Shown piece after piece: positions 1,843 to 59,175 of a stretch of DNA of 64,000 nucleotides. The notes under the pieces were generated by a model, which ran no database searches, was not told the origin of the DNA, and saw only the letters and a program-made list of their open reading frames with translations. The DNA is from Cinnamomum chago (lineage: Eukaryota > Streptophyta > Magnoliopsida > Laurales > Lauraceae), in NCBI GenBank assembly GCA_038049695.1, contig CP142460.1, positions 23,439,001 to 23,503,000 on the forward strand. Direction: 5' to 3'. A program made the position numbers and the translations under genes. The number at the start of each line of letters is the position of its first letter. The stretch's first letter is position 1.

Positions 1843-1873
1843 TATCCTGCCACTGTTGTAGATCACAATCAGA

Positions 1874-1908
<35 letters not shown>

Positions 1909-2866: not shown

Positions 2867-2934
2867 TCCTTGGGATCTCGGATTCCATGGGGTTGGGAGC
2901 TATAATTACAAAAAATCGCCAGAGATTTCTGCCC

Positions 2935-3163
2935 TGACGTCAACAGTTGACACGTGGCGCTGGTTCAACTTCTCTTCGCACGCTAGGGGTAATTAATTGC
3001 AGTAAATGCAACGCTCGAATTATTGCAGGAGATAAACCACCGATGACACGCGTCGCCATCCGGTTAGCCACGCTGTCACGCAGGGTACTCGTGCGGTCTT
3101 TGAAGCGACATTTTTTTAATTTTGGAAACGGCGCCATTACGGGGCGCTTCCTTTTTATAAATA
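2935..3163 (+). promoter_or_regulatory. Promoter-like block for the antisense extra ORF
   Basis: TGACGTCA (2935-2942, a palindromic bZIP-type site), then CACGTGGC (2951-2958, G-box/ABRE core), then TATAAATA (3156-3163), in that order upstream of the plus-strand ORF starting at 3373. The spacing suggests transcription starting near 3190 and a leader of about 180 bases. The motifs are seen directly; promoter function is inferred. The Tat lineage is known to carry antisense ORFs outside gag-pol. Confidence 0.5.
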
Positions 3164-3372
3164 GATGCATCTTCACCTTCTTCCCCTTTCTTACTTTTCA
3201 TTTTCGAAAGAACGTTTCCGAGAACTAGAGTAGAGACTTCGTTAACACACAGCACATTCACAGCCTCCGTTACTTTCTAGGTCTCCCGTATCAGTAAGTC
3301 CTCCGAGTCCTCGTTCCTTACTGCTTTCTGTCTTGTTCCTCTTCCCTTTTTCTTCTTTTTCCTTAATCAGCC

Positions 3373-8635: not shown

Positions 8636-8650
8636 ATTGGTATCAGAGCC
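8636..8650 (+). promoter_or_regulatory. Primer-binding site (initiator-Met tRNA type)
   Basis: tggtatcagagcc begins two bases after the LTR terminal CA, the standard plant copia primer site complementary to the 3' end of initiator methionine tRNA. Confidence 0.92.
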
Positions 8651-16062: not shown

Positions 16063-16067
16063 ATCGA

Positions 16068-20111: not shown

Positions 20112-21473
20112 TGTCGCGACCAAGGACCGGGCTGCCGAGGTCCTAATCCGGGATCGGGACTAATGATTGTAATATTGTGATGAGTGAATGGTTAATATGT
20201 AGAGTGTGTCAACAAGGTGCACACATTTATTTAATTTCCCACAGGTGTCCGCAGTGAGGATATCATAACCATATATGAATATTTCTATTAAGTGCGGAAG
20301 CGTGTAGCAAATCAAATATTCAATCCATCCCAAATTATAAAGATAATAACACAAGTATAGTACCGTACCAGAATGAGCAATGATCAATAACATGTTACCC
20401 AAAAATAAGGTTAACGTTTATACAAAGATCATTTAATTACATTTCCCAAAAACAGAGGCCAACGAGGCAAATATGAACAAAACACCAATCCCCAAAAGAA
20501 TGGTTAAAAGTTCTCCCAAAATGTTATCTCTCTCTAACAATCTAACGTCTACATGACATCATCAGCACGCCCCTCAACTAACTACTGCGGTTCACCGACC
20601 GCCTCCTCGTGCTCCTCCTCGAGATAACCGACGATGGGACCTGAGTACCAAAAAGTGGGTCAAACACGACGGTTGGGGAAATGGGTAAAATACAATGACA
20701 ATATGATAATAAAAGAATTTACCTTCAAAAGCATTTAAACCTGTTTAAATAACGATTTCTATGAATGAGATAAGCTTTTATTCAAATATGAGTATGCTTT
20801 ATAAAACATGTAAAGGTAACCAAGGAAATGGGAAACAAGCAAGATGACAACCGCACGAAGCTAAGTCCTCTATTACTAAAGTGACAGAGCAATAACTAGG
20901 CACTGATCTCAGCCACTCGAGGTGAGGAGAAACAGTGGATCTTATAAATACATATACATATACTATACATGACCACGGTAGCGAGCTGGGCATCGGGAAC
21001 CACAGTAGCAATCTGCGGCATCGAGACAAGACCACGGTAATAACCGGGTAGCGGGATCCAAACTGCAGCTGGCGGGACAAGAGGGGGGGTCTCCAAGTCG
21101 GTGGATCAGACCAGCAGGGTTATCCAAGCTTAGTGGTGCCGACTAATAGGTCAAATAACAAATCGAGACATATGCAAGTAAATCAAGTATAAATAAATAA
21201 ACGGGCAAGACGGGGGTGCTCAAGGGCACACTGTCGTTTCATGTCGTGCAATGCACTTCAAGACAAGTAACTATTATAAGTGTCATCCAATGTTTTCGGG
21301 AAAACAAGACATGTAATATAAATCTCTGGATCGATAAAGTACAATAAACAATTGAAATCTCTGGTAAAATATCGGGTTCAAGATTTATTTGAAGTGAATA
21401 GGGATCCCGTATGTCGATCTAATAATAATAATTTGGCACTCTTTGAGTTTGGGGACATTCTGGGCTCCTTATG

Positions 21474-24400: not shown

Positions 24401-24590
24401 ATCTTCAAGCGCATGCAAGGTCATAAAAAGGAACCCCAAAGGGCCCCACTGACACAAAGCAATCAAAATTCCCAGAACTATATCAAAAGCTATTCCAAAC
24501 CCAACTTAGCCAAAATCACTAATCAAGCTTAGAACTAACACACGACTTAATTAGTACTCTAATCGAGTTCACTCGGGTCAGGGTCTTACA
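21474..24590 (+). mobile_element. Solo LTR of the same family nested in the first
   Basis: 3,117 bp, tgtcgcgaccccgg to gggtcttaca, flanked by the duplication ttatg (21469-21473 and 24591-24595). Its first about 1.34 kb matches 20112-21473 and its last about 1.78 kb matches 24596-26501. This explains what looks at first like a tandem duplication. Same orientation as the host LTR. Confidence 0.9.
22999..23338 (+). promoter_or_regulatory. CTCGAG palindrome cluster and TATA of the inner solo LTR
   Basis: About ten copies of cgctcgagcg or one-base variants lie between 22999 and 23270, many extended to ttcgctcgagcgaa. They end about 60 bp before ttttatacatc (about 23334), a plausible TATA box. Enhancer-like use is an inference from position. 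Confidence 0.55.
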
Positions 24591-24703
24591 TTATGCACTT
24601 TAAATTTTCAAAACTTGGAATGCCATCTTCGTGATATGGTTTCTTTCTCGAATGGCCTCATACATTGCCTAGTGAATCTCCTTTGACCAACAAAGCTCAG
24701 CAC

Positions 24704-25247
24704 TCGAGTGAACCGGAGAGTTCGCTCGAGTGAGGAGCTCTCCGGAATGGTTGTCTGGGTAATTTCGGTTACCTTGCGGTCAGATGGCGGTTAGCCGCCG
24801 TTGGATTCGGCGGTTAGCCTGACAGAAAGACAGGTTACTGGAATTGTAACCAAAATGGTTCGGTTGGCTGGCGGTTAGCCGCTGATATGTTCAGCGGTTA
24901 GCCGCTAACTGACCGGGAGGCTGACCGTATTTCCAGGTGGAAATGTTGCTCTCTGGAAAAGTAACCGAATGGGTCGGTTGGCTGGCGGTTAACCGCCGAT
25001 GGGTTCGGCGGTTAGCCGTTGGCTAACCGTGAGGCTGACTGAGTTTTCAGGTGAAAAATGTTGCTCTTGGAAAAAGTAACATCGACTGTTCGGTTAGTTG
25101 GAGGTTAGCCGCAAGTCACCAGACGGCTAGCCGCCAGGTGATTGCTGGCTGACCGCCAGGTGCGGGAAACACCCACTGTGTTAAGATTTGAGCCATTTTC
25201 CTCCTCAAAACCATTATCTTCACTTCCACTTAATCCTTGCTATAAAA
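24704..25247 (+). promoter_or_regulatory. Composite palindrome cluster of the outer solo LTR
   Basis: At the position of the cluster in the inner LTR there are first a few ctcgag copies (24704-24745). A run of gcggttagccgc-type near-palindromes then follows (about 24770-25165). ccttgctataaaactg (near 25237) is the likely TATA box. Flanking LTR sequence matches the inner copy, but the repeated motif differs. Confidence 0.55.
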
Positions 25248-26508
25248 CTGAGCTAAAAGCTCCTCCAATGCATTATCTACATTTCTCAGCAACTCCAATA
25301 TGGGTTCATTCCATCACTTCCTCCATTAACATCAAATCCAATATAAATAAATAAAGAAGGAAACCATTTCACAATAGAGCACATTTGGCACAAACAAGAA
25401 GAAAATAAATGACATTCACCAATACACTTATAAGTCATAAATGCACTACCAAACTCTATCATGGACATTTATTTCAAACCAATGCAATAAATAGGCATGA
25501 GTGGAAAAATACCAAAATCATTGCAAGCTTATAAAAATCAAATCATCCACTTGCCTTTTGGTCTTCTAATAAGCAAATCAAGCTCTTATACTCTTCCAAG
25601 CCAAAGATCCAAGCTATGAACAAAATCCCCAAAAACAAACCCTAAAATGGTCAAACAATGAAATAGAAGGGGAAACCCTACAATAATGGAGATGAAGCTT
25701 CTATAGGTCTAGAAGAATACAAATCTAGAAGATGGGAAGGATTACTTACTTGTAAGGTCCTCTAATGGCAAGAGTAAGCTCAATGAAGATCTTGGAATGG
25801 AGGGTTTTCTTCACAAATGGTATCAATAGAGAGCCATGGTGATGAGGAAGAAGATGATGATCTCCATTTTGATGTTGGTGTAAGATTAGTAGGAGATTGA
25901 AATGGAGAGAGTAAGAAGAAGAAGAAAAGTTGCCAAACAAACCCTAGGTTCTTGTTCTGCTAGAAAAAAGGGAATGAAGAAGATGGGTCTCCTTATATAA
26001 GCAAATGGAAATGGGTCTCACTACTTAAGACATTCAAGGGCTAAAATCTTGGCTTTCGGGGCTTCTAATGAATTTGACGAAGAAGAGAAAAGTGATCATC
26101 GAAATATCTAGTTTCCAAAAAGTATATGTTTCGCAGGTTTCGGGAATATCAAGTTTTGGGTACAGATTTTGTGTGCAATGACTGTTTTGCCCTCAAGGCT
26201 ATGAAATCGGGTTTCGGGGTCTCGAACGTGGACGGGATCAACATGAAAGTTGTAGGGATTAACAATACAAATAAAACGGGATTAAAACAATGAATGCAAA
26301 AATCTCCGATAAATCCTCAAGCGCATGCAAGGTCATATAAGGAACCCCCAAAGGGCCCCACTATCACAAAGCAATCAAAATTCCCCAAAACTATATCAAA
26401 AGCTATTCCAAACCCAACTTATCCAAAATCACTAATCAAGCTTAGCACTAACACACGACTTAATTAGTACTAATCGAGTTCACTCGGGTTGGGGTCTTAC
26501 ATCTCGTC

Positions 26509-40200: not shown

Positions 40201-41682
40201 GATTTATGTTTATTTTCATAGTAGTGTCATCTTTGTGCATTTTTCAATCTCATAGTTATGGTCTTGCTCATATGAACCTCTTTAAAATCCATTATTTATA
40301 TTTCATAGTTATATCTATTGATTGATGGATGTTCACATGATGAGTTCATATGACTTTACATTTTGAAAATTGCATACATAACCAAGTCATATTTTTTTAT
40401 GCAATTTAACATGTTCATCACTATGCTTTCTAGTTATATTATTAAAAGTGATGAATATATCTTTAATGATGCTTAGTGGGATTTTTTGTCTGTCACATCT
40501 ATGTTCTTAATCATGTTTTCACAATCAATTAGTATCAATTGGTATCATATTCAATTGGTGTCATATCTGGAGAATGTGATAGACCTTGTGCACATTGGAT
40601 TGAACTTGATAATAATGTTTTTTTTATTCCATGTCACATTCCATTAGCATCATAAACCTTCATGTTTGCCACGTCTCATGCACATATAGGTAATTCTCAT
40701 AACCACTATTTTTTATGTGATTATAATCTTGGTTGTTTAATGGTTGATGACTGAACTTCATTTCATTCTCCTTGCACATTATAGTTATATTTAATGATGA
40801 AAGGAATTATTTCAAAAGATACATAATATATGGTTTTCATAGTCATATTAGTTGATGTTATGTTTAGTAAACCCCTACCACATCATAGATATCTCTAATT
40901 TGGACCGATCTTATTAGTGATAAGTTTCTTAACTCCATTTTAGAGTGATCGACATGTTAGTCATATCTTTTATTTCAATTGGAATTTTCTATCCATAATT
41001 GCATATTCCCTTGCCTATGCTCCAATTGTTAGTAATTTGATCATATTGAGCTCTATAGTTAAACATGTCTAATCCTTCCTTTAATGATCAACCCTCAATT
41101 GGTATAACCACCTTCTCTTTGTAATACATAGTTTAATCATTGTCAAATTCTTTACAGTAGGAGAGAATGGATTGAGGGAGTGTAGACAATCAAAGGAAGC
41201 ATTAGACTTGTGTAAATTGATCAAATTCACCCTTGAGTTAGCTTTGACCCCTTAGGATTGTTACCTATCATGCATGATAGCTCGTTATGCATTTCATTTT
41301 CAATTTCTTTTGTTAATAGGTGCTACTTAAGGTATTTTCCTTGTCTCATGTGTGTAGGTCTCATTATAATTTGATGTCAAAAGGGGAGAAAATGTTCAAT
41401 TTGTCTAAGGGGAGGTATTGCATAACTTGCCAAAAGGAGAGATTGCATGGTCAAAGGGGGAGAGATGAAGGAAGAGTAAAACTTGAGAGATAAAGAAGAT
41501 GCTTGGCCAAAGAGAGAAAATTGAATGAGAAGATTAAAGAATGATCAACCTCCAAGCATAAAGAATAATGAAGAAAAAGACCTAAAGCCTAAGCCAAGTC
41601 AAAGAAGCATCCAAGAGATTTCAAGACCTATCCACCTTAATTAGGGGGAGATGAAGACTTAGAATGAAAATTATGTGTGTGT
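40201..41682 (+). other. Non-coding 3' part of the SIRE-type element
   Basis: A/T-rich, no significant open frame. From about 41380 it has repeated ggggag-rich phrases (aaaaggggagaaaatg, caaagggggagagatg, attagggggagatgaag). The last (41642-41656) could be the polypurine tract. The CACTA element starts about 25 bases later. Confidence 0.5.
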
Positions 41683-41695
41683 ACCTACAACAAAA
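41683..41695 (+). repeat. Left terminal inverted repeat of the CACTA element
   Basis: acctacaacaaaa, compared with the inverted right end cacaacaacaaat at 57362-57374. Both are slightly decayed from the canonical CACTACAAC form. Confidence 0.6.
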
Positions 41696-41699
41696 TACA

Positions 41700-42880
41700 G
41701 TTTTACCAACGCAGTCACCGCATCTGGAAAAATCAGAATTGCGTCGGGACAGGCTTTACTGACGTAGTACAATGCGTCGGCACCACGTCGGAAACCTAAT
41801 GCCAAGAAAACCATTCCCGACGTAATAATGTTTAGCGTCGGCTAAAAAGGGCCATTCGCCGACGCAATGGTGCGTCGTCCCAAACGTCGGCAAAAAAATG
41901 AACTTAGTGGTCAACCTCACTTCACTGCCAACGCATGACAACGTCGGTTATACATTTGTCGACGCTAATACTAACGTCGGAATAGATATTTGAAGACGCA
42001 TACACAACGCATGTAATACATATCCCGACGTGTTGAAGCGTCGGGAAATGTCTTCAACGACGCATGAAAATTACTTTTAGCGACGCAAAGAATGCGTCGG
42101 GAAATAGATTTACCTAACTGCCGACGTATAACAACGTCGGTTATACATTTGCCGACGCTAATACTAGCGTCGGGATACATATTTGACGACGCATACACAA
42201 CGTCGGTAATACATATCCCGACGTGTTGAAGCATCGGGAAATGTCTTCAACGATGCAGGAAAATTATTTTTAGAGACGCAGACAGTGCGTCGGGAAATAG
42301 ATGTACCTAATTACCGACGCATAACAACATCGGTTATACATTTGCCGACGCACATACTAGCGTCGGAATACATATTTGACGACGCATACACAACGCCGGT
42401 AATACATATCCCGACGTCTTGAAGCATCGGGAAATGTCTTCAGCGATGCAGGAAAATTATTTTTAGAGAGCATAGGGTGCGTCGGCAAAATAGATGTACC
42501 TAATTGCCGACGCATAATAACATCGGCTATACATTTGCCAACGCACATATTAGCGTCGGAATACATATGTGACGACGCATACACAATGCCGGTAATACAT
42601 ATCCCGACGTGTTGAAGCATCGGGTTATGTCTTTAACGATGTAGGAAAATTACTTTTGGCGACGCAGAGAGTGCGTTGAGAAATAGATTTACGTCATTGC
42701 CGACGCATAATAACGTCGATTATACATTTGCCAACACACTTACTAGCGTCAAAATACATATTTGACGACGCACGCATACCGCTGGTCATACATATTCCGA
42801 CGTGTTGATGCGTCAAGAAATGTCTCTAACGAGGTCAAGAAATTTACTTTTGGTGACGCAGAGAGTGCGTTGAGAAATAA
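41700..42880. repeat. CACTA left subterminal repeats, 192-bp tandem units
   Basis: Units of about 192 bp start near 41930, 42121, 42315, 42507 and 42700 (cgacgcataacaacgtcggt and variants). Each contains several short hairpin-like pairs of gacgca and tgcgtcgg, in both orientations. In CACTA elements such subterminal motifs are the binding sites of the TnpA-type protein. Confidence 0.85.
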
Positions 42881-43338
42881 CTTTTCTTATCAATTAAGAA
42901 ATAATTGAAAAAATTAGGAAAAATTCCTGTTCAAATCTACATTTTTAACATTGCACAAGCATAAGCATTAATAAACAATAAATAATCCCACATTCATCAT
43001 GTAACAATAAAAAATAATGTGTCATCAATAAACTAAAACCAATCATAAAACTTGTCCATGCCACATAAAATGTAATATCCCACGTCAAAAAAAGTCAAAT
43101 ATCTCAATAAAGTAAATCTCAACTAAAATCTAATCATCAAATATCCAAAGCACGCCATGAAACACGGCCAGTAAGGAGCAAAATGAACTTGTTAGAGGGA
43201 TAACCCATGTCAGTTCATAAAACCATCAAATCCTTATCTTTCGGAGGAGCCCGAACCATCCATACCGACTCGGGAAAGCAACAATTGAATCTGACTCTGC
43301 ATGTGAACCCGCACAGCTGCCTGATCTTGCATTGGCTT

Positions 43339-44302
43339 CTACGAGTCCTCATACTGTCGCCGCAACTCTTCTCTCAAATCTTCTTGTGCTTTCAACGAAT
43401 CAACTAGTTGCTGCCGTAGGGTGCTTATCTCAGAAGACATCAAGATACCAGTAGAAGATGATGATGGGCCCCTCGAGCGGTACCCTTGCCTCCTTGCGAC
43501 CCTCTTCCCTAACAGATTCTCGATCACCTGTTGCTCAGCCACTGGAGAGTTAATTTCAGGCTGCGACAATGCCTCTTCCATTCTTCGCTGCATTATCGAA
43601 GCATGCAAATATGTCATGTAATTAATATATGTTAGGCAATTAAAATAAACGGGGATCTACAATACTAGCAAAGAGTGCCCCATGCAACTTGGTGGTCTTC
43701 GTCATATTAAGCTTAAAATCATAAGGCCTACCCATAAACACTACTATATGGACCATAAGCTTTAAGTATTGAATGAAAATTGACTTAAAAGGAGAGGTCA
43801 AATTGGATTTCTCAATAGTCAAAATCAAATTGGAATCAATCACTCACTTCACTTCATATATAATAATTGTAGTTCTTGCCTTGCCACGAACAATATGAGT
43901 AAAGAGAAGTTGCTAAATGGTAATGCAATATGGGATGAGCTATTGCGTGGCTATTAAATTGCAACATTGCATCACAACATGTTTAACTAGTGATAGGCTT
44001 AAAATGACCTTAAGCATAGGTTGTAAACTCCTTTTGCTTCACCTAAAGTACTATATAATACAAACAAATATTCTCATGTCAATGAAACAACTCACATGTG
44101 TCTCCTCAGCATGATCTGTGATCCATTTGTTCTTCTTATTGCTATAGTGTCGCTATCGATATAAATCAGGTTGAGATGGAGGAGCCTGTTGCTCATCTGC
44201 CTGCATGATCGAGAACTGGGCCGCAAATGATCGAGATCCAGATGTATGAAGCGACTTCACTTTGCTCCGGCTCTCTTTATTCCTCTGTGACTTGCGCTGA
44301 AA
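43339..44302 (-). CDS. Transposase_24-like (TNP1/TnpA-type) exons
   Basis: Two minus-strand exons. The first (about 44302-44096) follows ttttcag and reads RKSQRNKESRSKVKSLHTSG, then SRSFAAQFSIMQ, the basic N-terminal pattern of the plant Transposase_24 (Ptta/En/Spm) family, then KNKWITDHAEET before gtgag. It contains an in-frame stop between these blocks. The second (43604-43342, after ataatgcag) reads RRMEEALSQPEINSP, VIENLLGKRVARRQGYRSRG and a helical Gln/Glu-rich end. The family binds subterminal repeats during CACTA transposition. The protein is probably inactive. An additional open frame at 43843-43640 lies in the putative intron. Confidence 0.58.
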
Positions 44303-44661
44303 ATTACAAGTAATAGATAATGAATTGAGTAAGTAAATTTTTATAATAATAGGGATAAAAATATTTATAAATAATTATAATAATAGACATAAAAAGGGAC
44401 ACACACACCTAAAAGATTATTCTCTTTGGTTTTGGATGCTCATGCTCTGTTTTTCATTATTATTGAGACAAAAGGATTAATTGATTTGTTATAAACTTCT
44501 TTTTTCTCCTTATCCAATGAATCATTATATTTGATTCTGGAACCTATGAACACACCCATCCAAAGGAGCGGCTTGGATATTGTACTCACAAATTGGCATG
44601 AACACTGTAGGCTGTGGATGTAGGATATGTAAGTCCCCAGTTAAGCATATAATTCATGCAG

Positions 44662-44892
44662 GAACATGAAAAATTTGGTCTATGATATTTTTGATGATGT
44701 TTCTGAAACAAAGTTTCCAGGCTTTAAGGTAATATCTCTATATGATTACTAGCTTCTACTCTATCTCTCTATCTCTCCTCTCTCTAGCTGCTGATTGCAT
44801 GGCATTTGCAGACCATCTGGCTGGAATGTACTCAAGATCAGAATCAAATTAATTTTGTGCCAAGTGGATGGTATCACCAAGTTCTTAATATG
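44662..44892 (+). pseudogene. Captured fragment of a JMJD4-like JmjC oxygenase gene
   Basis: Two short exons with canonical borders. The first, 44662-44728, follows catgcag, reads NMKNLVYDIFDDVSETKFPGFK and is followed by gtaat. The second, 44812-44892, follows tttgcag and reads TIWLECTQDQNQINFVPSGWYHQVLNM, followed by gtatt. These are adjacent parts of the JmjC fold of JMJD4-type 2-oxoglutarate/Fe(II) oxygenases. FVPSGWYHQV carries the distal iron-binding His. Full proteins have about 400-500 residues; only about 50 are present, with no start, no HxD motif and no end. It lies on the strand opposite to the transposase, inside the CACTA element, so it is most simply a captured gene piece. A real gene cut by the element is less likely, because no flanking exons occur. 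Confidence 0.6.
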
Positions 44893-45355
44893 GTATTCTT
44901 CTAAGCCTTGAATTAGTGCTTGCTGACAGTACTGAAAAAAATAAAAAATTGTGACCTGCCCAAATCATGCAAACATTGATGAAAAGTGAAGATTGTGTTT
45001 TTCTGTGACTTTCCTGTAAGATGCCAAACTAATTAATTTGGTACTTGATGAGATCTTATTTTGTACTCCCATAAAATTCTGTACTTCATCATTGTTCTTA
45101 TGCTGTGTAATTGTATCTCAGTGTACCATTGTACTCTCTCAGTCTCTCTCTCTTTCAAGTAATGCTTTTGAATGAGCTTGCTAGTTCTTGTATAACTTCT
45201 CTTGGATTGGCTCTTTTTGACAAGATGGTTATCAACATAGCGAATGCATTTTTGGCTATTGGCAAGTATTCATTGTAAATTCATGCTGAAGTGCTCTACT
45301 TACGTGCGATTTATATCAAATATTCATGGTTAAATTGATGCCTTACTGGTTACAG

Positions 45356-45451
45356 GCTAACCGTGTTGTCTTTGATACCTTAGTGCTTGTATGGAAATCA
45401 CCTGCTAGAATGGCTCGACTACAAAATGAACAGGAGCTTAGCTTAGTGCAA
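45356..45451 (+). pseudogene. Captured exon resembling Tra1/TRRAP
   Basis: A 96-bp, 32-codon phase-0 exon between ggttacag and gtaagt, reading ANRVVFDTLVLVWKSP, then ARMARLQNEQELSLVQ. The protein segment is regular and gene-like, and I associate it with plant Tra1/TRRAP, the large HEAT/FAT scaffold of SAGA and NuA4 acetyltransferase complexes. That attribution is from memory and should be searched. An upstream stretch (about 45195-45262, LGLALFDKMVINIANAFLAIG) may be a further exon piece. It is only a tiny part of a protein of more than 3,500 residues. It lies 460 bp downstream of the JMJD4-like exons on the same strand. Confidence 0.4.
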
Positions 45452-45599
45452 GTAAGTTTTAATTGCTCATCAAGTTATTTTTTGATTTGTGGCTTCATTT
45501 GTTATTCCTTGAATGTTCAAATGTTTGTCCTGTCCTCCAGTATGTTGTTCATCTGCTTATGAGATTATCATGATTTTTAACTGTTTATGGTGTTTTAGT

Positions 45600-47103
45600 C
45601 AGTATCTGTCTATGCTATTTGCAGTTTGATTCCATAACTCTCAATTGTAGGAACTCTCTTGATAGTAAACATCTTTATATAACACACTAATATTTTTATG
45701 ACTTTTCCAAAACGGGAAGTCCCATTTGAAGCCATATGCTAATTTATGATGAGTCCCATTTGAAGCCATATGCTAATTTATTGGATTTGGCTACTTTTTT
45801 ATGCTTTTTCTGGTTTTGACTTTAGAGTTAGGGTATTTGTGTTTGTGTGTGTGTGTGTTTTTTTTTTTTATAATATTTGTATGCTGATGTAGTATAGCAA
45901 CTTTTTTTTTAATGTCTTCTTCACACTACCAACAGAATCCACTCCTTCAAATAGAAAACACATCAGGCCACTCCCCCAAAATTTATTAATTTAGGTTTTT
46001 TTAAGATGGCTGCAACCCGCAAATAGCAACAGAAATGGAGGGGCAAATGACACCAAATAAATTGACGCCCTATTGGTGTGGAACAGGGATTGATGCAGGG
46101 CAGGTAGGAAAAACAACTATTGGCATTTTATTATGCACAGAAAATAATTTCCTTCTTATAAAGCAAACACATCATACGTCAAAACTCAAAAGTGCATGAT
46201 TGTAAATCACCAGCAAATAGCTCATCCTTATTAAATAGAAGAAAAGGTAAACTAGTGTAGGAGTGAACATGCAAGGTCAACAAACCAACATAAAATAAAC
46301 ACTAGCTTCACTAGTGGATGATATCTTCAGAGAATCTGTTTAAAGCACATGTTGGACTCCTTCAAACAAAAGAGACATCGACAAACATATCTGTTGAAAT
46401 AGATTGGTCAGGACATGGACAAACATATCCGTTGATATACTAGTACATCAGAATCAAAACGTAAGATGCAAATTTCCTTCCTTTTCTAAGTAATGAAGAA
46501 TACATGCAAAAGGGAGTACAAATAATCACCACTTTTGAAGCATAGACAATATCTTGCAAAGTGAACTACACTCACCCATCCTTAAAATGCAGAGCATATA
46601 AGGCTTAACGCAAGGACCAATATGCGTTAAGCATGCAAATTTGCTGAGAAATCTCATAAACCAAGCTTACAAACACAATGAAAAAGCATAGCAGTACAGC
46701 ACCCAGAGATGACCAATGGAAAGAGAGCCCATTTCCAAACATTAAAAGAAAGAAAGTGACAACAACTTCACGCTGTCACTTCACAGGGCAGACAATGCGT
46801 TCGAATAACTAGCATAACATTTAATTTCATTCATCTAAGCTTCATACAGATGATAAAATCTGATTTGTGAAATTTTAAAAGCTTATATGCACCTGTGTAC
46901 TCAATAATATCTTTTGTGAATGTCAACACTATTCTCTTAACAGTGTTTTATATTGCGTTCTTGCAAGCAAGATCCTCAATATTGTCATAGAAATGAGGAG
47001 GGATGATTGATTGTAGTGAAGGAGAGGCGCTTAGAAAACTGGTGATCAAAATGTACCCATCCATTTAGATTTCTACTCAGCCTTGTAGTTTGATAATTTC
47101 TCC
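45600..47103. other. CACTA interior, nothing recognised
   Basis: A/T-rich sequence with intron-like character. A 30-bp duplicated phrase (gtcccatttgaagccatatgc) occurs at about 45719 and 45754. No exon or element end was recognised. Confidence 0.4.
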
Positions 47104-47330
47104 TTTTTTGAAAGGTAACCTGATTTTATTGTAAAAACTAACCAACATAAGAGACATTTCTTGAAAAACAAAAATAGAGAACCAAACAAAAAAGAAGGAA
47201 TACATCTACAAAAATAAGGGTAGCCCCAAAAACGCCTAGGCCAAAAAAACTAGTGAGGAAACATATCTGCAGCAAGGGTCTGCCAACCCACGCCCTCCTT
47301 GGCCACATTTGAGCCATGCAAGACATGAAA
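47104..47330 (-). mobile_element. Possible 3' end of a LINE
   Basis: The minus strand reads ..ttggtt, a T-rich segment, cttatgttggttagtttt, acaataaaatcaggttacct and a short A-run. This is the layout of plant L1 3' UTRs and similar to the end of the LINE at 30891. A short open frame at 47341-47138 (IFVDVFLLFCLVLYFCF) is probably not coding. No target duplication was found. Confidence 0.3.
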
Positions 47331-50300
47331 AAGGGAAGCACTGAGCTTCACAGCAAGCTACAGACCTACTTTACCTTATCTGCCAAACACCAAGGAAAGG
47401 AAGAAGACACTGATGCCCATCTAATGACACAAGAAGAGTCTTCCTCTACTATAAAAGTGCCACCCACTCTTTCTCACACCCAGTGGCCAAATCATTCGGT
47501 AAAAGTCATAAAAGTATAATGTAACAGTAAAAAAAAAGTGGTAAAAACTGAAGTTTTCACACAAAACTGTTATATACTTGACACCCTCATAAACAAAAAA
47601 TGGACTCCTGCACTGAGTGCATGAGTCTTACTTTAATAAGCCACTCCTTCATCCAATTGTGTGACTCATTCAATTATAAATGTGAAGAAGGAAACATTAT
47701 CAACTGGGAACAACAACTTAACAGAGCTCTATAACCAACAAAATTTCAGCAGAAACAATTAACCCAGTGTATTAAAAACAAAAGGAGAAGAACTGATGGA
47801 TAAACTAAAACTTTAGGAGATTTTATGTCCTGCATATTGAAAAAATTAACAAAGAAACTGAGTACTGAACTGAAATCAATAGAATTAGCCATACTGAGAC
47901 AGAAATAATAAAACCCAATCACACCCACTAAGCAAAATGCCAGAAAACAAAAACCCATTTCACGAAATTAGCAGAGACTCTGATGAAGATAGAAATAACA
48001 TCAATAAAATCAATGACACCCACACCATGTAAATAGCTAAAGCGAGATGAGCAAATTGAAATCGAGAAATTCAGTTAAACCCAGATTACAGAAGCTGCAA
48101 TAATGCAAGCAACAATCCTGAAATCACCAAACCCAAATCATACTCAACTGTAAAGATAGCAATAATCGGCAAGAAATTGTATAAAAAACCATGAGAGAGG
48201 AGATCAATGGTTAAAATCCAATCCAACCCAATAATTGAAAACAGTAGATGATTAGAAAAAAACCCGATCTGAAGCAAGAGAATCAACGAGCAAGAAACGC
48301 CTCTGAAAATGCAGAAAAGGCGACCCCAGATCGAAGAGTGAATTGGACTTTCCAGAGGTGTTTGCGAAGTAGGGAAGAAGGATAATGGAAGAGATACAAC
48401 AACAGAAGAGGAAGATGAAGGAAAAGGAACTGGGTTCTTTGAGACCCCGACCCGAGTGAACTCGATTAGTGTTAATTGAGTCTTGTGTTAGACTTAAGTG
48501 TGATTAGTAGTTATTGACTAAGTTGGGTTTGGAATAGCTTTTGATATAGTTTTGGGGAATTTTGATTGCTTTGTGATAGTGGGGCCCTTTGGGGGTTCCT
48601 TTTCATGACTTTGCATGTGCTCGAGGATTTATCGGAGATTTTACATTCATTGTTTTAATCCCGTTTTATTTGTATTGTTAATCCCTACGACTTTTATGTT
48701 GATCCCGTCCCCGTTTGAAATCCCGAAAACCCGATTTCATGGCCTTGAGGGCAAAACAGTCATTGTGCACAAAATCTGTACCCAAAACTTGATATCCCCG
48801 AAACCCGCGAAACATATACTTTTTGGAAACTAGATATTTCGGCGATCATTTCTTCCTTCTTCGTCGAATTCATTTGAAGTCCCGAAAACTATGATTTCAG
48901 CCAAAAGATATTTTCTAGTGGTGGGACCCATTCTCACTTGCTTATAAGAGGAACCCATCTCCCTTCTTTTCCAACTCCATTTTCCAGCACAAACCAGCAA
49001 CCTAGGGTTTCTCTTGTTTTTCTCTTCTTCTTCTTGCTCTCTCCATCTCCAAGCCACACCAAACTTACACCAATCAAGAAATGGAGGTTATCATTCTCTT
49101 CCCCACCTTGCAAGCTTCCTTTTGATACCATTTATTGAGAAATCCACCAACTTTGAGATCTTCATTGAACTAACTCTTGCCATTTGGGGACCTTACAAGT
49201 AAGCAATCTTCTTTATCTCCTAGACTTGTATTCTTCTAGTCCTTGAGAAGCTCCATTTTCATTATTGAAAGTTCTTTCTTCTTCATTCATGGTTTGACCC
49301 ATTTTAGGGTTTGTTTTGGGGGTTTTTGCTTGTAGCTTGGATTTTGACCTTGAGAGGTGATTAGAGACTTGGATTCGCTTGATTAGAGACCTAAGGCAAG
49401 TGGATGAATGGATAAGTTTTTGAACATTTACATGTTTCATGGAAATCTCTTGTTTTACACTATTGGTTCTTAATGATTTTTACATGTGTTTTCATAGTTT
49501 TCCTTGCCTTGATTTCTATTACTTTTGAAATGCATATTGATGAGTTGATTTCTCTATTATACATCTTGATAGATGTATCCATTATGTTGTTAAAGTGTAG
49601 ATGAATCTTATGGATAGTGGTTTTCATTTCTTTGATGTTTGAATGTGAAGAAGAAGGTGTTTGGATTCAATGTTCATTGGAATTTTGATGAAGGTTCTTA
49701 TATGATTGTTTGAAGAGATTTAATGGTTGTTATTGGGAGGCAAGAAGGCTTTTTGTTAGAAGAAAACATGTTTTGGAGATGAAGGAGAAAAAAAAAAGCC
49801 AAAATGGCCTTTCCCGGTAGCAGAAATGACTGCCCACTCGAGCGCGTATCAGTCCGCTCGAGCGCGCAGTCATTCTGACTGCAGCTCGGGCAACAAAAAT
49901 GACTGCCCGCTCGAGCGCGTATCAGTCCGCTCGGGCGCGCAGTCATTCTGACTACAGCTCGGGCCACTTTGAAATGCCTATAACTTTTTATTCCCATATC
50001 GGATTTGGAAGTTCTATATACCGTTGGAAAGCTCTTGAAGTAAGGAATCCAATGGTATACTTATCTTAGTGTTCAAATATTGAAAAGTGAAGTGGATATT
50101 TGAATCAATGAAAACTAGTATATGATTAAGAGTTTTTAGCTTGATATTGTGCATTTGAAAATCCTAAAGTGTATAAGGAGCCTGGAATGTCTTCAAACTC
50201 AAGGAGTACAAAGTTATTATTACAATCGACATACGGGACCCCTATCCACCTTAAAAAAATCTTGAAATCATTATTTTACCCGGAATTGTAATAGTTCATT

Positions 50301-50934
50301 GTACTCCCTCATTTTCCAAGATTTACATTACATGATTTGTGTCACGCCCCCGAACCAGAACTTTGGGGGCGGGAAATGGGATTAAGCATAAATGTATTTT
50401 TCTTCTCCCAGGATCCGCGTGTGTGAAGACAAGACATTCTGAATATTTTGCGGAAGCATTTGTGGCGTTGCGACCCGAAGTCCGTGGCCATCGGATTCCG
50501 CGTCGCACTCAAGCTTTAGCACATAGCTATTATATCAAGAATCATATCAGACTGGAGTAAACCATCACAATAAATTACAGAGCTGACAGTAACAGGATAT
50601 TACATTCCCAAATATGTTCAAGTTACAATTATCAATGTACATTAATTAAGAATCCCAAGAAAAAGGCTAATAAAAGCCATACAACAATAAGCTATTAACC
50701 ACTACCCAAAAAATGACGTAGCTCCGATGTCAGGCTCAATGTCTACATGACATAGCCGACAAAACAACCTGCAAAACATGGCTCCACAGCCAACCAAAGC
50801 ACTCAATTCGGGACGAAGAAATCCGAACCTGAGTACCAAAAGTAGTGGGTCAGACACGACGGTTTGGCAGGTGGATGAAAAGATAATAATATACTGAAGA
50901 ATAAAACATATGATAAATCATGCTATTCGATCAA

Positions 50935-51620
50935 ATGCTGCATATAATTAAACGGGTGCAAAATCGTGGATCTCGGGCAAAACATGTATTCGTTTCAAGC
51001 ATGGGTAAAACATGAAGATCAAATAAAACATGTGTTCATTTACATCATCTATAATCATAGATATTTGACAATCGGGTGCTCGTCTAAAACATGTATAAAT
51101 ATAGTGGTTTGACAAAACAAACGTTCATTTGAGACTTAGGTAAAAACATAATTATACAACAAACCAGGTATTCATAGCAGTCTGGCAAAACCAATGTCCA
51201 TTTGAAACATATGTGAAAATACGGATATTTAACAAACCGGGTGTTCATTTAAAACAGGTGTAACCAAAGAAATCTGACAAAACTAATGTTCATTTACACA
51301 TATTTCAAAGCAGGGATATTTAACAAATCGGATATTCATTTGAAACAAGTATAAACCTAGGGATCTGGCAAAACAAGTGTCATTTGAAATATTTTTCAAA
51401 GCATGGGTATTTAACAATACGGGTATTCATTTAAACAAGTATAAACCTAGGGATCTGGCAAAACAAGTGTCATTTGAAACATTTTTAAAAGCATGGGTAT
51501 TTAACAATACGGGTATCCATTTAAAACATGTGTAATCGTATAAATCAAGTAAAATCATCGACCGTTTGAAGCATATGTAAAAGCATGGGTATTCACCCAA
51601 CCGCCATTCATTTAAGACAT
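50935..51620 (+). repeat. About 90-bp tandem array inside the solo LTR
   Basis: About seven imperfect units of 90-110 bp with the phrases cgggtattcatttaaaac, ggatctggcaaaacaagtgt and atttttcaaagcatgggtat. The last two units (from 51361 and 51451) are nearly identical, indicating recent unit amplification. Confidence 0.8.
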
Positions 51621-52628
51621 GTACTTGTACAAGGAACAGAAAACAACATAATAACAATAACTGAATTCACTTTGGAGAATATTAACACTTTCTAAATAAC
51701 AACTTTCATAAAGGAAACGAATCATTTATTGGAAAACATATAAGCAATATAAAACATGTCGGGCATCCAAGGGATCGGGAACTGGCAATATGGCAATCAC
51801 AAAAAGCTAAGTCCTCTATCACCGAAGTGACAAGAGTATAACGGGATGTTGGTCTCAGTCACACAAGGTGAGGAGACTCAACGCAAATCATATATACAAT
51901 ATAAATATACGGGAACGGGACCACGGTAGCGAACCGGGTATCGGGACGGGACCACGGCAATAACCGGGTATCGGGATCCAAACTGCAGCTGGCGGGACGG
52001 GAGGGGGGATCTCCAAGTCAGTGGATGAGACTGACAAGGTTATCCAAGCTTAGTGATGCCGACTCATAGGTCAAAACCAATCGAGACATATGCAAGTAAA
52101 TCAAGTACAATAAATAAACGGGTAAAACGGGGGTGCTCAAGGGCACATTGTCATTTCATATCGGGCAATACATTTCGGGACAATTAACTGTTACTAGAGT
52201 AACTTCAAATGCTTTCGGGAAAACAAGTCATATAATGCAAATCTTGGAAATGAGGTGAAACAATAAAATATAACAATTTCGGGAAAAGTATTAATTTCAA
52301 GATCTATTTAAGTGAATAGGGGTCCCGTATGTCAATTATAGTCATTACTTGGTACTCCTTGAGTTTGAAGACATTCCGGGCTCCTTATGCACTTTTACGA
52401 TTTTCAAATGCACAACATCAAGTTGAAAACTCTTAATCACATACTAGTTTTCATTGGTTCAAATATCCACTTCACTTTTCAATCTTTTATCACTAAGATA
52501 AGTATACCATTGGATTCCTTGCTTCAAGAGCTTTCCAACGGTATATAGAACTTTCAAATCCGATATGGGAATCAAAAGTTATAGGCGTTTCAAAATGGCT
52601 CTTCTTTTTTTTTTTTTCCTGCAGGTTC

Positions 52629-52795
52629 CCGGCGTCTGGACGCCCGGAAGCAGAAAAGGGCGCCCAGGTCTCTGTCTCCTGGCGTCCGGACGCCCAAAAC
52701 CTGGCGTCGAGGCAGAAACCTCCCAGGCATCCGAAATTTTGCTATTTTTTTTTACATCCTTTCCCTCCTTTCTCTTCCACTTGAACTCTTATACA
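52629..52795 (+). promoter_or_regulatory. GGCGTCCGGACGCC palindrome cluster and TATA of the solo LTR
   Basis: ggcgtctggacgcccgg, gggcgcccagg, ggcgtccggacgccc and ggcgtcgagg occur between 52629 and 52715, followed by aactcttatacaaattgagc near 52785. Same layout as in the sister LTRs, but yet another palindrome. Confidence 0.5.
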
Positions 52796-55700
52796 AATTG
52801 AGCTTTTCCTTGCTTCAACAAACATCCAAACTAAAATAAAAACTCCCATCAAACTTCAATGAACATTAAATCCAAACACCTCTTTCTTCTCATTTCACAT
52901 TAAACAAAGGGAAGAATCCCCAATATACACAAGGGTCCATTTGAGCCAAGAATCTAGAGATAAATCAAGACTATTGATTCACATTTCCTTAACCATAGAT
53001 GATTTAGCAAAACTCATTAAATGAGCATCTATTTCAAATCAATGCAAGCTAGTAAACATAAACATGGGTGGAGAAACCAACCCCATTCATTTCAAAACCA
53101 TATGAATAAACTTTGACCAAATGAAATGCATATATTTCCAAGGGATTTAACAAGAGAGAAACAACCATTAATATGCATTTTCGAAATCAATAGAAATATG
53201 ACAAGAAGCATGTGTAGAAACATATATCACATTATCAAGAACAAGTAATAAAACTTAGGTTTTTCTCATAAAACTTAATAACATTCAAACCATCCATTCA
53301 TCCACTTGCCTTTGACTCTAATCAAGCAAATCAAGCTCCTAATCACCTCTCAAGCTCAAGATCCACAATCTCTACAAAAACCCCCAAAACAAATCCTAAA
53401 ATGGGTTAAACAATGAAATGACAAGGAAACCTTTCAATAATAAAGGTGGAGCTTCTCTAAGGCTAGAAGACTACAAATCTAGAAGATGAAGAAGAACACT
53501 TACTTGGATGACCTTCAAATGAGGAGAACAAGCTCAAGGAAGGTCTCAATATGGGAAGATTTCTCCAAGAATGGTATCAAGGTGAAGCTTGCAAGATGAG
53601 GAAGAGGTTGGTGATCTCCATTTCTTGATTGATGAACTATTGGTGTGGCTTGGAGATGGAGAAGCAAGAAGAAGAAGAGAAATACAAGGGAAAACCCTAG
53701 GTTCAGCTGGCTGTGCTGGAAAAATGGAGAATGGGATGCAATGAAGGGGGTGGGTTCTCTTATGTTAACAAAGGAGGTTGGGTCCCACAACTTAAGGGAC
53801 TAGTTTGGCTGAAATCATCTAATTCGGGACCTCGGATGGATTCGACGAAGAAGGAAGAAATGATCGTCGAAATATCTAGTTTCCAAAAAGTATATGTTTC
53901 GTGGGTTTCGGGAATATCAAGTTTTGGGTACAGATTTGGTGTGTAATGACTGTTTTGCCCTCAAGGCTAAGAAATCGGGTTTCGGGTTCTCAAATGGATA
54001 CGGGATCAACATGAAAGTTGTAGGATTCCTCAAGATGAATGGAACGGGCCAAAAACACAATACGAAACCAATCGGGAAAATCTCACAAGTAAATGCAAAG
54101 CCGAAAAGGGAACCCCCAAAGGGCCCCACAAGCTACCAAAGCACTCAAAAGCCCAAAACTAGAAGAAAACCCATTCTAGCTCACAAACTCAACCCAACAA
54201 ATATTAATCCCACTAAAAGAACTAATCCACAAATAAAACAGCACTAATCCAAGAGATTAGGGGTCGGGTTCTCACAATTTGTCTTCCCGAAAGTCTTGAA
54301 GTTACCCTAGTAACAGTTACTTGTCCCGATATGTATTGCCCGACATGAAATGAAAGTTATGCCTTTGAGCATTCTTGCCCCGTCCATTTATTTACTTGAA
54401 CTTGATGTATTTTACACATATCTCGATTTGTTATTTAACCTATGAGTCGACATCACTAAGCTTGGATAACCTTGTCGTTTGATCCACCGACTTGGAGATC
54501 CCTCTCCCGTCCCGCCAGCTGCAGTTTGGATCCCGATGCCCGGTTTATAACCATGGTCCCGTCCCGATACCCGGTTCGCTACCGTGGTCCCGTCCCGTAT
54601 ATTTATATTGTATATATGTTTTTCGTTGAATCTCCTCACCTTGTGTGACTGAGACCAACGTCCCGTTATACTTTTGTCACTTTGGTGATAGAGGACTTAG
54701 CTTTATGTGATTTCCATCTTGTTAGTTCCCGATTTCCTTGGATACCCATACCTGTTTTATACGGCACTATGTTTTCAGTAAATGATTCGTTGCTTTTATG
54801 AAAGTTATTGATTGAACAGGTTAAATGCTTTTACAGACGTTTTGCATGAATATATGATTTGTCAGATATCCATGTTTTACAGACGTTTTACATGAATATA
54901 TGATTCATCGGATATCCATGTTTTACACCCGTTTTACATATATACATGATTTGTCAGATATACATGATCTTTCCACTCGTCTTATTTATATGCAGTATTT
55001 GATCAAATAGCATGATTTATCACATGTTTTATTCTTCAGTATATTCATTATCTTTTCACCCACCTGCCAGACCGTCGTGTCTGACCCACTACTTTTGGTA
55101 CTCAGGTTCAGACTTCTTCGTCCCGAGATGAGTGCTTTTGTTGGCTGTGGAGCCATGGTTTGCAGGATGTTTTGTCGGCTATGTCATGTAGACATTGAGC
55201 TTGACATCGGAGCTACGTCATATCTAGGGTAGTGGTTAATAGCTTATTGTTGTATGGCTTTTATTAGCCTTTTCTTGGGTTTCTTAATTAATGTACATTG
55301 ATAATTGTAACTGGAACATATTGGGAATGTAATATCCTGTTACTGTCAGCTATGTACTTTATTATGATGGTTTACTCCAGTCTGATATGGTTCTTGATGT
55401 AATAGCTATATGCTAGAGGTTGAGTACGATGCGGAATCCGATGGCCACGGACTCCGGGTCGCAACGCCACGAAAGCTTTCGCAAAAATATTCAGAATGTG
55501 TTGGAATGTGTTGTCTTCACACACGCGGATCTTGGGAGAAAAATATATTTATGCTTAATCCCATTCGTATCCCCAAGGTTCCGGTTTGGGGGCGTGACAG
55601 GTTCCCACACCTGGGTCTCGATCACCACACCCATTACAGAGAAAAATGGATGGAGAGATCAAAATACAAAACCCTAGAAAAAGAAGAGATCCAGATGAGA

Positions 55701-55879
55701 ATCGATGGGAAAGATGTTTGGGAGTTGAATCCGAAATGCATGAAGGCCCCTTTTCCTTCTTCTGTTTACCAATACAATAACAAACAAAGAAATCAACTAA
55801 AGGGTTGCTGGCTGGGCGGGAGGGTTGCTGGAGGCAGGGGCGGTGGGAGAATAGGGAGGACTGGACAGCATAAAGCGAG

Positions 55880-56156
55880 ATGGAAAAGGAGAGATCATAC
55901 CTTTTCTTGCTGTACTTGCAAGAAGAAGATGATTCCGAAGAAAGGTTTGCCTTTCTTTTGCTGCAGTTACAGACGGCCGGGTTCACTTTGCTGCAGTTGC
56001 AAGAAGAAGACGATGGAGAAAGAGGAGTTTGCTTGTTGCTGTTGCAAGAAGAAGCCGAGTCCGAAGGACGATTTGGCTTGCAGGAATTGCGAGAAGGAGA
56101 AACGAGAAGAAGAAATTCGGACCGATTTAGAAACATGGTATAAGGGTTTGGTGTGA
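55880..56156 (+). CDS. Cys-rich 15-residue repeat frame, unrecognised
   Basis: The plus strand carries four to five units of about 45 bp built on ttgctgcagttgcaagaagaag. In the open frame they encode CCTCKKKMIPKKGLPFF, CCSYRRPGSL, CCSCKKKTMEKEEFA, CCCCKKKPSPKDDLA and CRNCEKEKREEE, then a stop at 56156. A period divisible by three and the conserved CCxCKKK core suggest coding, or a microsatellite-like expansion. The frame upstream runs back into solo-LTR sequence, so the true start is unknown. It lies upstream of the transporter exon on the opposite strand and may simply be its promoter region. No family recognised. Confidence 0.28.
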
Positions 56157-56159
56157 GTC

Positions 56160-56689
56160 TTTTATAATGCTGGAAATTTTAGCGGGAGATTCAGTGGCAC
56201 CAAAAATTAGGTTTAGTTCACCCAATAAAATATTAGCCGCTAAAAATATATCTTTAGCCTCAAAAGCATAGGCCGCCACAAAAAGTTAGATGCTATAAAC
56301 TAAATTTTTTTTATTTCCACCAAAATCTCATTTTGAATGGAGGTATCTTATTGTACGATTGAACACAAAAAAAAAGGTTAATAAAACAACATTTTTTTAG
56401 CCATGGTTTTCTGTTTGGTCAATCTTACAGTGGTTCCAACTCAATTCTAACAAAAAATTGGGATACCCCATAATTAAATGTGTATGAACTTTTTGAACGA
56501 CTCTGATTATCCATATATCGGCACGAGTGAGACCCATTCAAAAAAGTTCCCACCATACTCCGCTAAAAGCTATTGTTAAAAAAATTAAAAAGTAAAAACC
56601 CATGAAAAAGGTAGAGAGTTGGGAACAAATAAAAGCAGTTAAAACGGAGTGCTCATATTATTTTGGCAAAAATGAATTTTACTAAATGG
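56160..56689. other. CACTA interior near right end, nothing firm
   Basis: Several ccgctaaaa / ttagcgg phrases occur in both orientations (56180-56260 and 56560), perhaps a decayed repeat. No gene recognised. Confidence 0.35.
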
Positions 56690-57374
56690 GGCTTTGCAGA
56701 CACAGACCTATGCATCGCCAGTAATCAAAATAATTGTATGTTTTTCATAACTTTTGCCAACGTGGTCTTACTTGTGTTGGTAAAAGTAACAATTCTATGT
56801 GACTTTTGCCAACGCAGTCCAAATATGCATTGGAAATAAGACTTTTGCCAATGCCAATTTTCACTGCGTCGGCAAATAGTGTCGGGAAAGTTTTTCCACA
56901 GCTTTTGCCAACGCAGTCTTACTTGAGTCGGTAAAAGTAGCAATTTTCTCTGACTTTTGCCAACGCAACTTTTCACTGTGTCGGAAATAGTGTCGGAAAA
57001 GGTAAGTTCGTCATAAATGGGGCTTTGGGGACGCAACTCATACGTTGGCAATTATACGAATAAAAACTCAGACCTTTCCCGACGCACACTTGTGCGTCGC
57101 CAGTAAACAAGATAATTGCCAACGCATTATTGCGTCGCCATTAGATAAAAACGCGTTGGCAAAACTTTCCCTCTCTTTTGGTGTTTTTTTTGTTGGCGCC
57201 AATGCGGTTTCAATAGCTTTTGCCAACGCTGTCTTACTTGCGTCGGTAAAACTATCATTTTCCGACACTAATTGCCAACGTAGTCCAAATATGCGTTGGA
57301 AATAAGACTTTTGCCAACGCAAATTTTCCCTGCATCGGCAAATAGTGTCGGGAAATGTGCAATTTGTTGTTGTG
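56690..57374. repeat. CACTA right subterminal repeats and terminal repeat
   Basis: Repeated acttttgccaacgcagtctt / tgcgtcggcaaatagtgtcgg phrases, at least five in direct and inverted forms, mirroring the gacgca/tgcgtcgg motifs of the left end. They end in aatttgttgttgtg (57361-57374), the inverted terminus, then target copy tgt. Confidence 0.75.
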
Positions 57375-57376
57375 TG

Positions 57377-59175
57377 TGTTGCCATCAAATTGAATGTGTT
57401 GTAATTTGATGGACGCATTATCATTTAAGCAGCATTCAAATTTTCACATGAGCATTGATTTTGACAATTTTGAAATCTTGATTTTCACATGCGTTGTTTT
57501 AAAACTTTTAGAACTTGTGTTTCATGTATGCCTTGGATTTTAACATTGGATGCATAAATTGATTTTAAGCATGCATGCCCATGATTTGATAGTTAATTCA
57601 TTTTAGGTATAATAGGTTCAAGTTTTGAAACACACTTTTGAATTGATTTAAACGTGAATCTAAGCATGATCTCCATGGCTCAGAACTCTCACTAGCAAAA
57701 TACTTTGGATTAGCTCTTTGCTTAGTCTTCTTAAAAAATCATAATTTTTTAAGATAGGTGCTACGGTACTTTTGCTCCAGTACTTGTGCAACAGTGTTTT
57801 GCTACAGTAATTTCAGTTAACCGAACTCAAGTATGTTGGTTTAGCACCGAACCCAATTCAGTTCAAGTTGTCGGATGGTCAAAACTAGCCGTTTTTTCAC
57901 CATTGGGAGTTCGGTTAACCGAACTGTGAAGGGGGAGAACCGACAATTGGCCGTTGAACTACTTTTTCTATATAAATAAGCTCATTCCTAGGCCATTTGG
58001 ATCCAACTTTGAGGCATTCTTTGAGGTGAATTAAGGCCAAACAAGGGGGGATGAGCTAAGTAAGGCTAGTGGGTCAAAAGGGAAGTTAAAGCTTGGATTC
58101 ACTAACTTAAATAATCCATGTAAGCATTGTTTTTCATATCATATGTTACATGCTTTGTTTAAATTATTGGTAAATTAATTTTTGCATGGTAACTATGATT
58201 AGTCGAATCCATTACATGTATTACACTTTGAATTGCCTTGTTGTTTTGGATTCTTCATTTAGCTTCAAACCAATTTAGTTTTAATTGTTATATCATATTG
58301 GGTTCATGCTTGGTTTAAAACTTTGATTTCTCTCATAGCATGAATCTCATACTTGGTTGAATCTTTAGCTATTTATTTTCATACCATGATCTCATTGGTA
58401 AACTAATTTATTTCAAAAACAGCTATGATCTTGCATCACATGTTTTAGATTTGAGATTTCAATACAACTTGTGAGCTTTCGATAGACATATCATTAACAA
58501 CTTAATTTTTGAAAAACATGTGATTAGCATGCTTCTTGCTTCAATCAAAACATTTGTGATTTAAACTTTCAAAAGATTTAAGCTTACATTCATTGAGCTT
58601 TCATTTTTTAAACTTGATTGACGTTTTCACACAAACACAATGAGCATTCTTCTTTGCATTAAGTAAAGTGTTGTGTGAGTTGTGTTTTCACTTTCATACC
58701 CACCTAATTAAAAGGCATTGTAATTAAGCTTAGTTTGTATCTCTTCAAGTGTATTGCAGACACATCTTAGAGATAACCAATCTTAGGGTTATAGGTTAGT
58801 GCTTAACCTTAGAAAAGCATAAGTGTAAAGGCTCGGGGAGAACCATAAAACCCAAGAGGTTATTGATTAACCTTGAAAAGCGTATTGTAGAGGTTATTAC
58901 TTAGCCTATTGAAAAGCATAGATAGTGAAAATTTGGTGGGGTGTAAGAACATAAGCCGGGATTGAACGTAGGCATTGAGGCCAAACCATTTTAAATAGTC
59001 GTGTTATGGTGATTATTTTTGTTAGCTTCCGCACTTTAGTTCTATATCATCACTTGTGCTTAATTGATTTCAAGAAGTTAAAATTTGGCATAATTGGTCA
59101 CTAATTGAAGCTCATCTATTCAACGTCAACCCCGCCCCCCCCCCCCCTCTCTAGAGTTCGAATCGTAGACTTTCA
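57377..59175 (+). repeat. 5' LTR of the second SIRE-type element
   Basis: It ends gtagactttca directly before tatggtatcagagcc. A ggttaaccgaac palindrome cluster lies at 57815-57925, TATA tctatataaataag at about 57967, a run of ttattgattaacctt-like 35-bp units at about 58790-58925 and a C13 tract near 59135-59147. Confidence 0.7.

Follow-up and report, generated by a model that had tools for sequence, protein, structure and literature searches.

The DNA of Cinnamomum chago analysed here (the window: 64,000 nucleotides, C10:23439001-23503000, from a genome searched over 1.06 Gb in 14 contigs) contains at positions 41683-57374 a CACTA transposon of 15.7 kb, nested insertions included, which carries pieces of three host genes unrelated to one another: a JMJD4-like gene, TRA1/TRRAP and an MFSD5-like gene (features given below without a strand have none assigned). 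There is good reason for confidence that this element is a non-autonomous deletion derivative from a multicopy, transduplicating CACTA family, that its TRA1 piece was copied in during break repair, and that the window copy is likely immobile and its cargo neutral. According to this model, the family would have acquired genomic DNA, exons together with introns, from the three genes in separate events, and the cargo-bearing elements would then have multiplied by transposition. In the case of TRA1, a break would have occurred inside an existing element, with the broken end switching via microhomology to TRA1, a gene on a different chromosome; about 1.18 kb would have been copied before a switch back, leaving filler DNA from template-switch repair. 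The window copy would afterwards have lost 4.85 kb, gained two nested insertions of the long terminal repeat (LTR) type and lost its terminal bases.

A single CACTA element at these positions, with a TGT target-site duplication (TSD) and matching subterminal repeats, had already been proposed in a first-pass annotation made from the letters of the window, and several observations sustain it. The TSD copies lie at 41680-41682 (read from the flank and the empty sites) and 57375-57377 (read from the flank). Subterminal repeats, recognized by motif density, occupy 41685-42900 on the left, where they contain a 193-bp tandem array of 4.9 copies (41926-42879), and 56660-57374 on the right, where the end itself was placed by the ends of other copies; motifs of the CGACGC/CAACGC type reach 26.3/kb and 16.8/kb at the two ends versus 0.15-0.36/kb in the remaining window. 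When the flanks were rejoined, with the element excised and one TSD removed, continuous alignment across the junction was obtained at 34 of 40 scored places (72-80% identity; 40 scored of 3375 candidates, a pass requiring the 400-base query to align from base 5 or earlier to beyond base 320). These empty sites represent diverged, element-free relatives of the flanking repeat, which means that the element ends are insertion borders within repeated sequence. The borders also follow from an intact relative at C1:84.09-84.10 Mb (the C1 copy; 13,393 bp, CACTA...TAGTG, TSD GAG/GAG), whose alignment with the window element extends from one end to the other save for a 4.85-kb deletion and the nested insertion.

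The terminal bases of the window copy are decayed, reading ACCTAC... at one end and ...TTGTTGTG at the other. The ends of other family copies are consistent with one another, as the first-pass annotation had asked: 5' ends read CACTA in 6/7 and CGCTA in 1/7, and 3' ends read TAGTG in 8/8. The left 518 bases of the element alone gave 148 matching stretches among the best 40 of 409 candidates. The hallmarks of CACTA elements (En/Spm, DTC) are thus found, namely the termini (at the family level), a 3-bp TSD, subterminal repeat arrays and transposase-related coding sequence, together with those of transduplicating CACTA elements, that is, host DNA between the ends with parents elsewhere, and cargo present at several loci with identical junctions.

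The TRA1/TRRAP piece (45325-45718, forward strand) comprises the final 127 nt of an exon (45325-45451), a GTAAGT donor and then intron. It is 98.5% identical over 395 columns to a gene on C9, and the piece in the C1 copy, with the 127 nt of exon and about 1.05 kb of intron, is 97.9% identical to the same gene over 1184 columns. The C9 gene (C9:54.097-54.102 Mb) matches Tra1_ring (PF20206, E 5.4e-40) and its PDB matches are TRRAP/Tra1 chains, making C9:54.10 Mb the probable TRA1 parent; the 41-residue piece of the window on its own reaches a Pfam E of 0.036. The piece had been described as a phase-0 Tra1/TRRAP exon. Its identity and its donor are real, but it has no 5' splice border: the acceptor-like bases GGTTACAG ahead of GCTAACC are coding in the C9 parent, so the supposed phase-0 exon is a truncated exon that begins mid-exon. 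TRA1 is present at 7 loci, 7 of 31 matching places covering the query in full, TRA1 exon part included, and six further places carrying part of the JMJD4 fragment (31/31 candidates scored). All seven TRA1 copies begin at one parent base, and the six that lack the window's deletion all end at one parent base; such identical borders show a single TRA1 capture followed by amplification. Twelve differences from the parent are common to all covering copies, to which every one of the six full-length copies adds 7-15 per ~1.18 kb.

The TRA1 block lies inside the captured JMJD4-like fragment (44555-45328, forward strand), where it takes the place of ~38 bp. As the first-pass annotation had recognized, this fragment contains two exons (44662-44728 and 44812-44892) with intact AG/GT borders, the remainder being intron, and it differs from C10:65855933-65856707 by 29 mismatches and 47 gap positions over 798 columns. 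JMJD4-like exons flank that match on both sides (C10:65852683-65858417, 76-79% peptide identity), so that the gene at C10:65.85 Mb is the probable parent. A fourth captured gene considered at 45167-45328 was rejected, the sequence being intron of the JMJD4-like parent. The exon peptides retrieved 21 close loci (38/38 candidates scored), made up of the parent and 20 further loci, one of them the window, and beyond these two weak loci of 58% and 38% identity; 19 of the 20 non-parent loci were read, and all 19 lie within element sequence. At three loci (L010, L012 and L014) and in the C1 copy, TRA1 is bordered by JMJD4 parent bases 1501-2275 on one side and 2314-2766 on the other. In the TRA1-free copies L017, L018, L019 and L022 the JMJD4 sequence runs unbroken through the TRA1 site, up to 2.1 kb in L022 (parent bases 1108-3233). 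The position of TRA1 within the JMJD4 piece and the existence of these unbroken copies indicate that JMJD4 was captured before TRA1. The mean distance of the JMJD4 copies to the parent is 4.6% (13 copies). With a substitution rate of 1.3e-8 per site and year, the JMJD4 capture would roughly be of the order of 1-2 million years old, and that of TRA1 about or under 1 million.

Both TRA1 junctions show microhomology to the donor: CATG (4 bp) on the left and, on the right, TCCTTAAGT (9 bp) when L019 or L022 is taken as the state before capture, or 5 bp when L018 or the JMJD4 parent is used instead. Among 200,000 random position pairs, the chance of a match was 0.022 for at least 4 bp, 0.0075 for at least 5 bp and 9e-5 for at least 9 bp. 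The published Pack-TYPE model, proposed for Pack-CACTA elements in Arabidopsis, involves tandem insertion and re-mobilisation: two elements insert near one another around a piece of a gene, and aberrant excision with complementary end deletions leaves a hybrid element (PMC13317346, PMC8903248). Such a course could still hold for the JMJD4 or MFSD5-like captures, but it fits the TRA1 event poorly and is, on the whole, an unlikely account of the element. Two JMJD4-bearing elements would be needed on either side of 1.18 kb of the TRA1 gene, their complementary losses would have to end within ~40 bp inside the same JMJD4 cargo, and the 5-kb C9 locus bears no element trace, its only other similarity to the C1 copy being a 19-nt A-rich run. 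Template-switch repair is favoured for TRA1 by its nested position, the junction microhomology, the donor on another chromosome and the unbroken TRA1-free copies. Gap filling with microhomology has been documented for animal Pack-TIRs (PMC8277862), and filler DNA for transposon excision sites in rice (PMC4423477). A 2026 review has suggested that DNA transposons may capture unlinked genes by some other mechanism, still to be discovered (PMC13317346). The chances seem evenly balanced that the TRA1-in-JMJD4 junctions have caught that undefined route, which would be microhomology-guided template switching at a break in an element already bearing cargo, repeated so as to give layered cargo.

The third piece, MFSD5-like, is on the reverse strand and in two parts. 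The inner part (47746-48437) contains exon 1 (48269-48437), a mutated donor (AT, 48267-48268) and then intron 1; the outer part (55600-55740) contains the start of exon 1 (ATG at 55634-55632) and 5' flank/untranslated region (UTR). They are 96.8% and 99.3% identical, respectively, to an uninterrupted 831 bp of a gene at C5:87.84 Mb, its probable parent, covering 5' flank/UTR, ATG, exon 1 in full and a portion of intron 1. The initial description as a 5' UTR and first exon resembling an MFSD5-type transporter agrees with the C5 match, with the correction that the donor is mutated and the exon is split by nested LTR-like insertions. The donor GT is kept in 21/21 other copies read and lost only in the window (GT to AT; 22 distinct copies). 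On the right, the 36 rows that reach the border (of 37 matching locus rows, several overlapping) all end at L073:172, and these common borders show a single MFSD5-like capture followed by amplification. In the right-side search (best 40 of 220 candidates, 57 matching rows), 11 rows start at query base 138/139 and so are without the MFSD5-like part there; in copies of this kind the match to the element begins at ~55738. The piece also occurs in a copy at C3:87.73-87.74 Mb that has no JMJD4 match in the search with the JMJD4/TRA1 fragment.

Several observations accompany this piece. One copy without it, L074 (C10:43637444-43637744), has different DNA at that border. Another locus, L057 (C3:49510557-49514601), carries a longer MFSD5-like fragment that extends beyond exon 2, adjoined by a stretch resembling element positions 2055-2239, out of order. 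The DNA next to the fragment in the window (47475-47748) also has separate matches, of ~270-300 bp, at six or more places (C1, C2, two on C3, C4 and C6), one of those on C3 being L057. The MFS_5 gene at C3:118.73 Mb was rejected as parent of the transporter piece, its similarity being confined to GA-rich simple repeats, and no constraint was detected on exon 1 that would speak for its exaptation as a transposase leader.

All three cargoes occur together in at least three of the seven TRA1 copies (window, C1:84.09-84.10 and C4:50.35-50.37 Mb), the MFSD5-like searches behind this count covering the best 40 of 81 and the best 40 of 220 candidates. The checks proposed with the first-pass annotation concerned parent genes in the same genome, captured introns and further copies of the cargo, and they turned out in favour of capture: probable parents exist at C10:65.85, C9:54.10 and C5:87.84 Mb; intron sequence is present in all three pieces, as seen in alignments to the parents; and the JMJD4 exons recur at 20 non-parent loci, TRA1 at 7 loci and the MFSD5-like piece in 22 copies read. 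Retro-capture of processed mRNA was rejected because of these introns. The other reading raised at the outset, of genuine host genes clustered here before transposons moved in, was also rejected and is hardly conceivable, with nothing found in its favour, since the multi-exon genes matched by the three fragments lie on different chromosome-size contigs, the same junctions recur across many copies, and empty sites are present. The early claim of intact splice borders holds for the two JMJD4 exons only, as TRA1 starts mid-exon and the MFSD5-like donor is lost.

The cargo is read as passenger DNA, without clear selection in the sequences compared. This reading rests on similar divergence of exonic and intronic sequence in the JMJD4 and MFSD5-like cargo (2.2% vs 2.5% and 2.0% vs 1.6%, respectively), from which TRA1 departs by the weak exon deficit described below. 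It is very improbable that the cargo has instead been retained for an influence of its small RNAs or chimeric transcripts on the genes of origin, or as a shield against silencing. Chimeric transcripts are documented for Tgm-Express1 (PMC1947982), a camouflage idea has been raised (PMC8978399), and the TRA1 exon part is slightly poor in changes; against retention stand the stop codons in 12 of 21 non-window MFSD5-like exons and, among 13 JMJD4 copies, stop codons in 3 and altered splice sites in 4, and no gene fragment recurs in inverted orientation among the repeats listed for the element. The window element may nevertheless give rise to small RNAs or chimeric transcripts.

Some observations count against the history proposed here or the names given to its parts. 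The differences particular to individual TRA1 copies number 3 over ~889 exon sites and 65 over ~6,600 intron sites, a weak deficit in the exon that is slightly low for pure neutrality, in copies that are not independent. The length of the right-junction microhomology hinges on which TRA1-free copy is chosen as the pre-capture state, and L016 and L017 are altered there. The TRA1-free L016 (C8:41780377-41784191) departs from JMJD4 at parent base 2309, within the stretch replaced by TRA1, suggesting that the site was broken or rearranged more than once. JMJD4 copies L020 and L023-L028 have other truncations or deletions and are uninformative on the TRA1 site. Microhomology was scored at the TRA1 junctions, there being no clean cargo-free allele readable at the JMJD4 and MFSD5-like borders. 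Two of the names are also weakly founded. The designation JMJD4-like presumably holds, relying on peptides of neighbouring JMJD4 exons; the window exon peptide reaches E 9.2e-5 against Pfam JmjC, just short of the curated cut-off, and the C10 parent peptide has PDB matches to JmjC proteins (best E 2.7e-4). Similarly, the C5 gene is taken to be MFSD5-like from an MFSD5-like peptide that its downstream exons match at 57-63%. The MFS_5 model gives a sub-threshold E of 0.018 on exon 2 of this gene and no match on exon 1, and an MFS_5 profile search of the genome listed only C3:118.73 Mb, the C5 gene being absent from the matches. A PDB search with the MFSD5-like exons returned nothing up to E 10.

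Multi-gene cargo is already known in CACTA elements. Tgm-Express1 of soybean (wp allele) resembles the window element: it too is a CACTA whose captured fragments, introns included, stem from several unrelated host genes, five in its case, and its spliced chimeric transcripts are documented (PMC1947982). Pack-CACTA and other Pack-TYPE elements of Arabidopsis, rice and maize likewise hold captured gene DNA, several loci per element being common in maize Pack-CACTA (PMC8903248). Three sources in one element, which the first-pass annotation had thought remarkable, are therefore not exceptional; what this family adds is the set of intermediates, with copies from before and after capture and one capture nested in another. 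Tgm-Express1 differs in being 5.7 kb long, within an F3H intron and with cargo spliced into transcripts, whereas the window element lies in repeated sequence, contains transposase remnants along with nested LTR-like insertions and is known here from DNA alone. Unlike strict Pack-TYPE elements, which have no transposase sequence, the window and C1 copies retain transposase-related exons (a Transposase_24 remnant in the former, Transpos_assoc in the latter). Tpn1 of the Japanese morning glory is also of the CACTA type, with conserved ends and an interior replaced by captured genic DNA; its host and cargo are others, and the part of the report covered mentions no nested captures (PMC5105172). Captured genic regions are found in Chenopodium elements too (PMC8978399). 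Animal Pack-TIRs, although terminal inverted repeat (TIR) transposons of animals and not plant CACTA elements, are alike in breakpoint microhomology, in gap filling or replication-fork template switching, and in multiplication by transposition (PMC8277862). Among the literature titles and abstract beginnings surveyed, and these only, none dealt with this element or this combination of cargo. With a donor on another chromosome, pre- and post-capture copies and readable junctions all in one family, the question of capture becomes testable by sequence alone. The element is also an annotation hazard, as pieces of this kind (from a JmjC-type gene ~49 amino acids, from TRA1 part of an exon, from a transporter its start) may be annotated as genes in error.

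Of the Transposase_24-like exons initially proposed inside the element, one remnant was confirmed at 44156-44374 on the reverse strand (PF03004, E 7.4e-7, 29.8 bits vs a cut-off of 28.7); its equivalent in the C1 copy gives E 1.5e-9. A Transpos_assoc exon (PF13963, E 3.3e-19) is kept in the C1 copy and deleted from the window copy. The scanned open frames gave no match to the catalytic Transposase_21, for which no search aimed at that domain alone was made. The open frame at 43342-43656 (reverse strand) is probably a coding remnant of a TnpA-like protein; a Pfam scan of this frame gave no match.

The 4.85-kb internal deletion, defined by alignment to the C1 copy and with its junction at 45715-45718, removed the remainder of the TRA1 and JMJD4 pieces along with the Transpos_assoc exon. 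A nested solo-LTR-like insertion with ~3.2 kb of its own sequence (48438-55599, forward strand) splits MFSD5-like exon 1 and is flanked by a 5-bp TSD, GGTTC, read from the flanks at 48433-48437 and 55600-55604; no such interruption occurs at this site in the other copies read. A second solo-LTR-like insertion of the same family (50340-54276, reverse strand; TG...CA ends, TSD ATTTG) is inverted within the first. In all likelihood the window element can no longer transpose and its cargo is neutral.

The inverted pair of same-family LTR-like sequences at 48438-55599 makes up a long inverted repeat whose transcript, if one is made, could adopt a hairpin structure. Further stretches of that LTR-like family, likewise repeated, are found ~22 kb away at 20145-26497 of the window. 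Elsewhere in the window, 6971-8637 and 14390-16064 are direct repeats 7.4 kb apart with 96% identity over 1.68 kb, and they are probably the two LTRs of a single retrotransposon.

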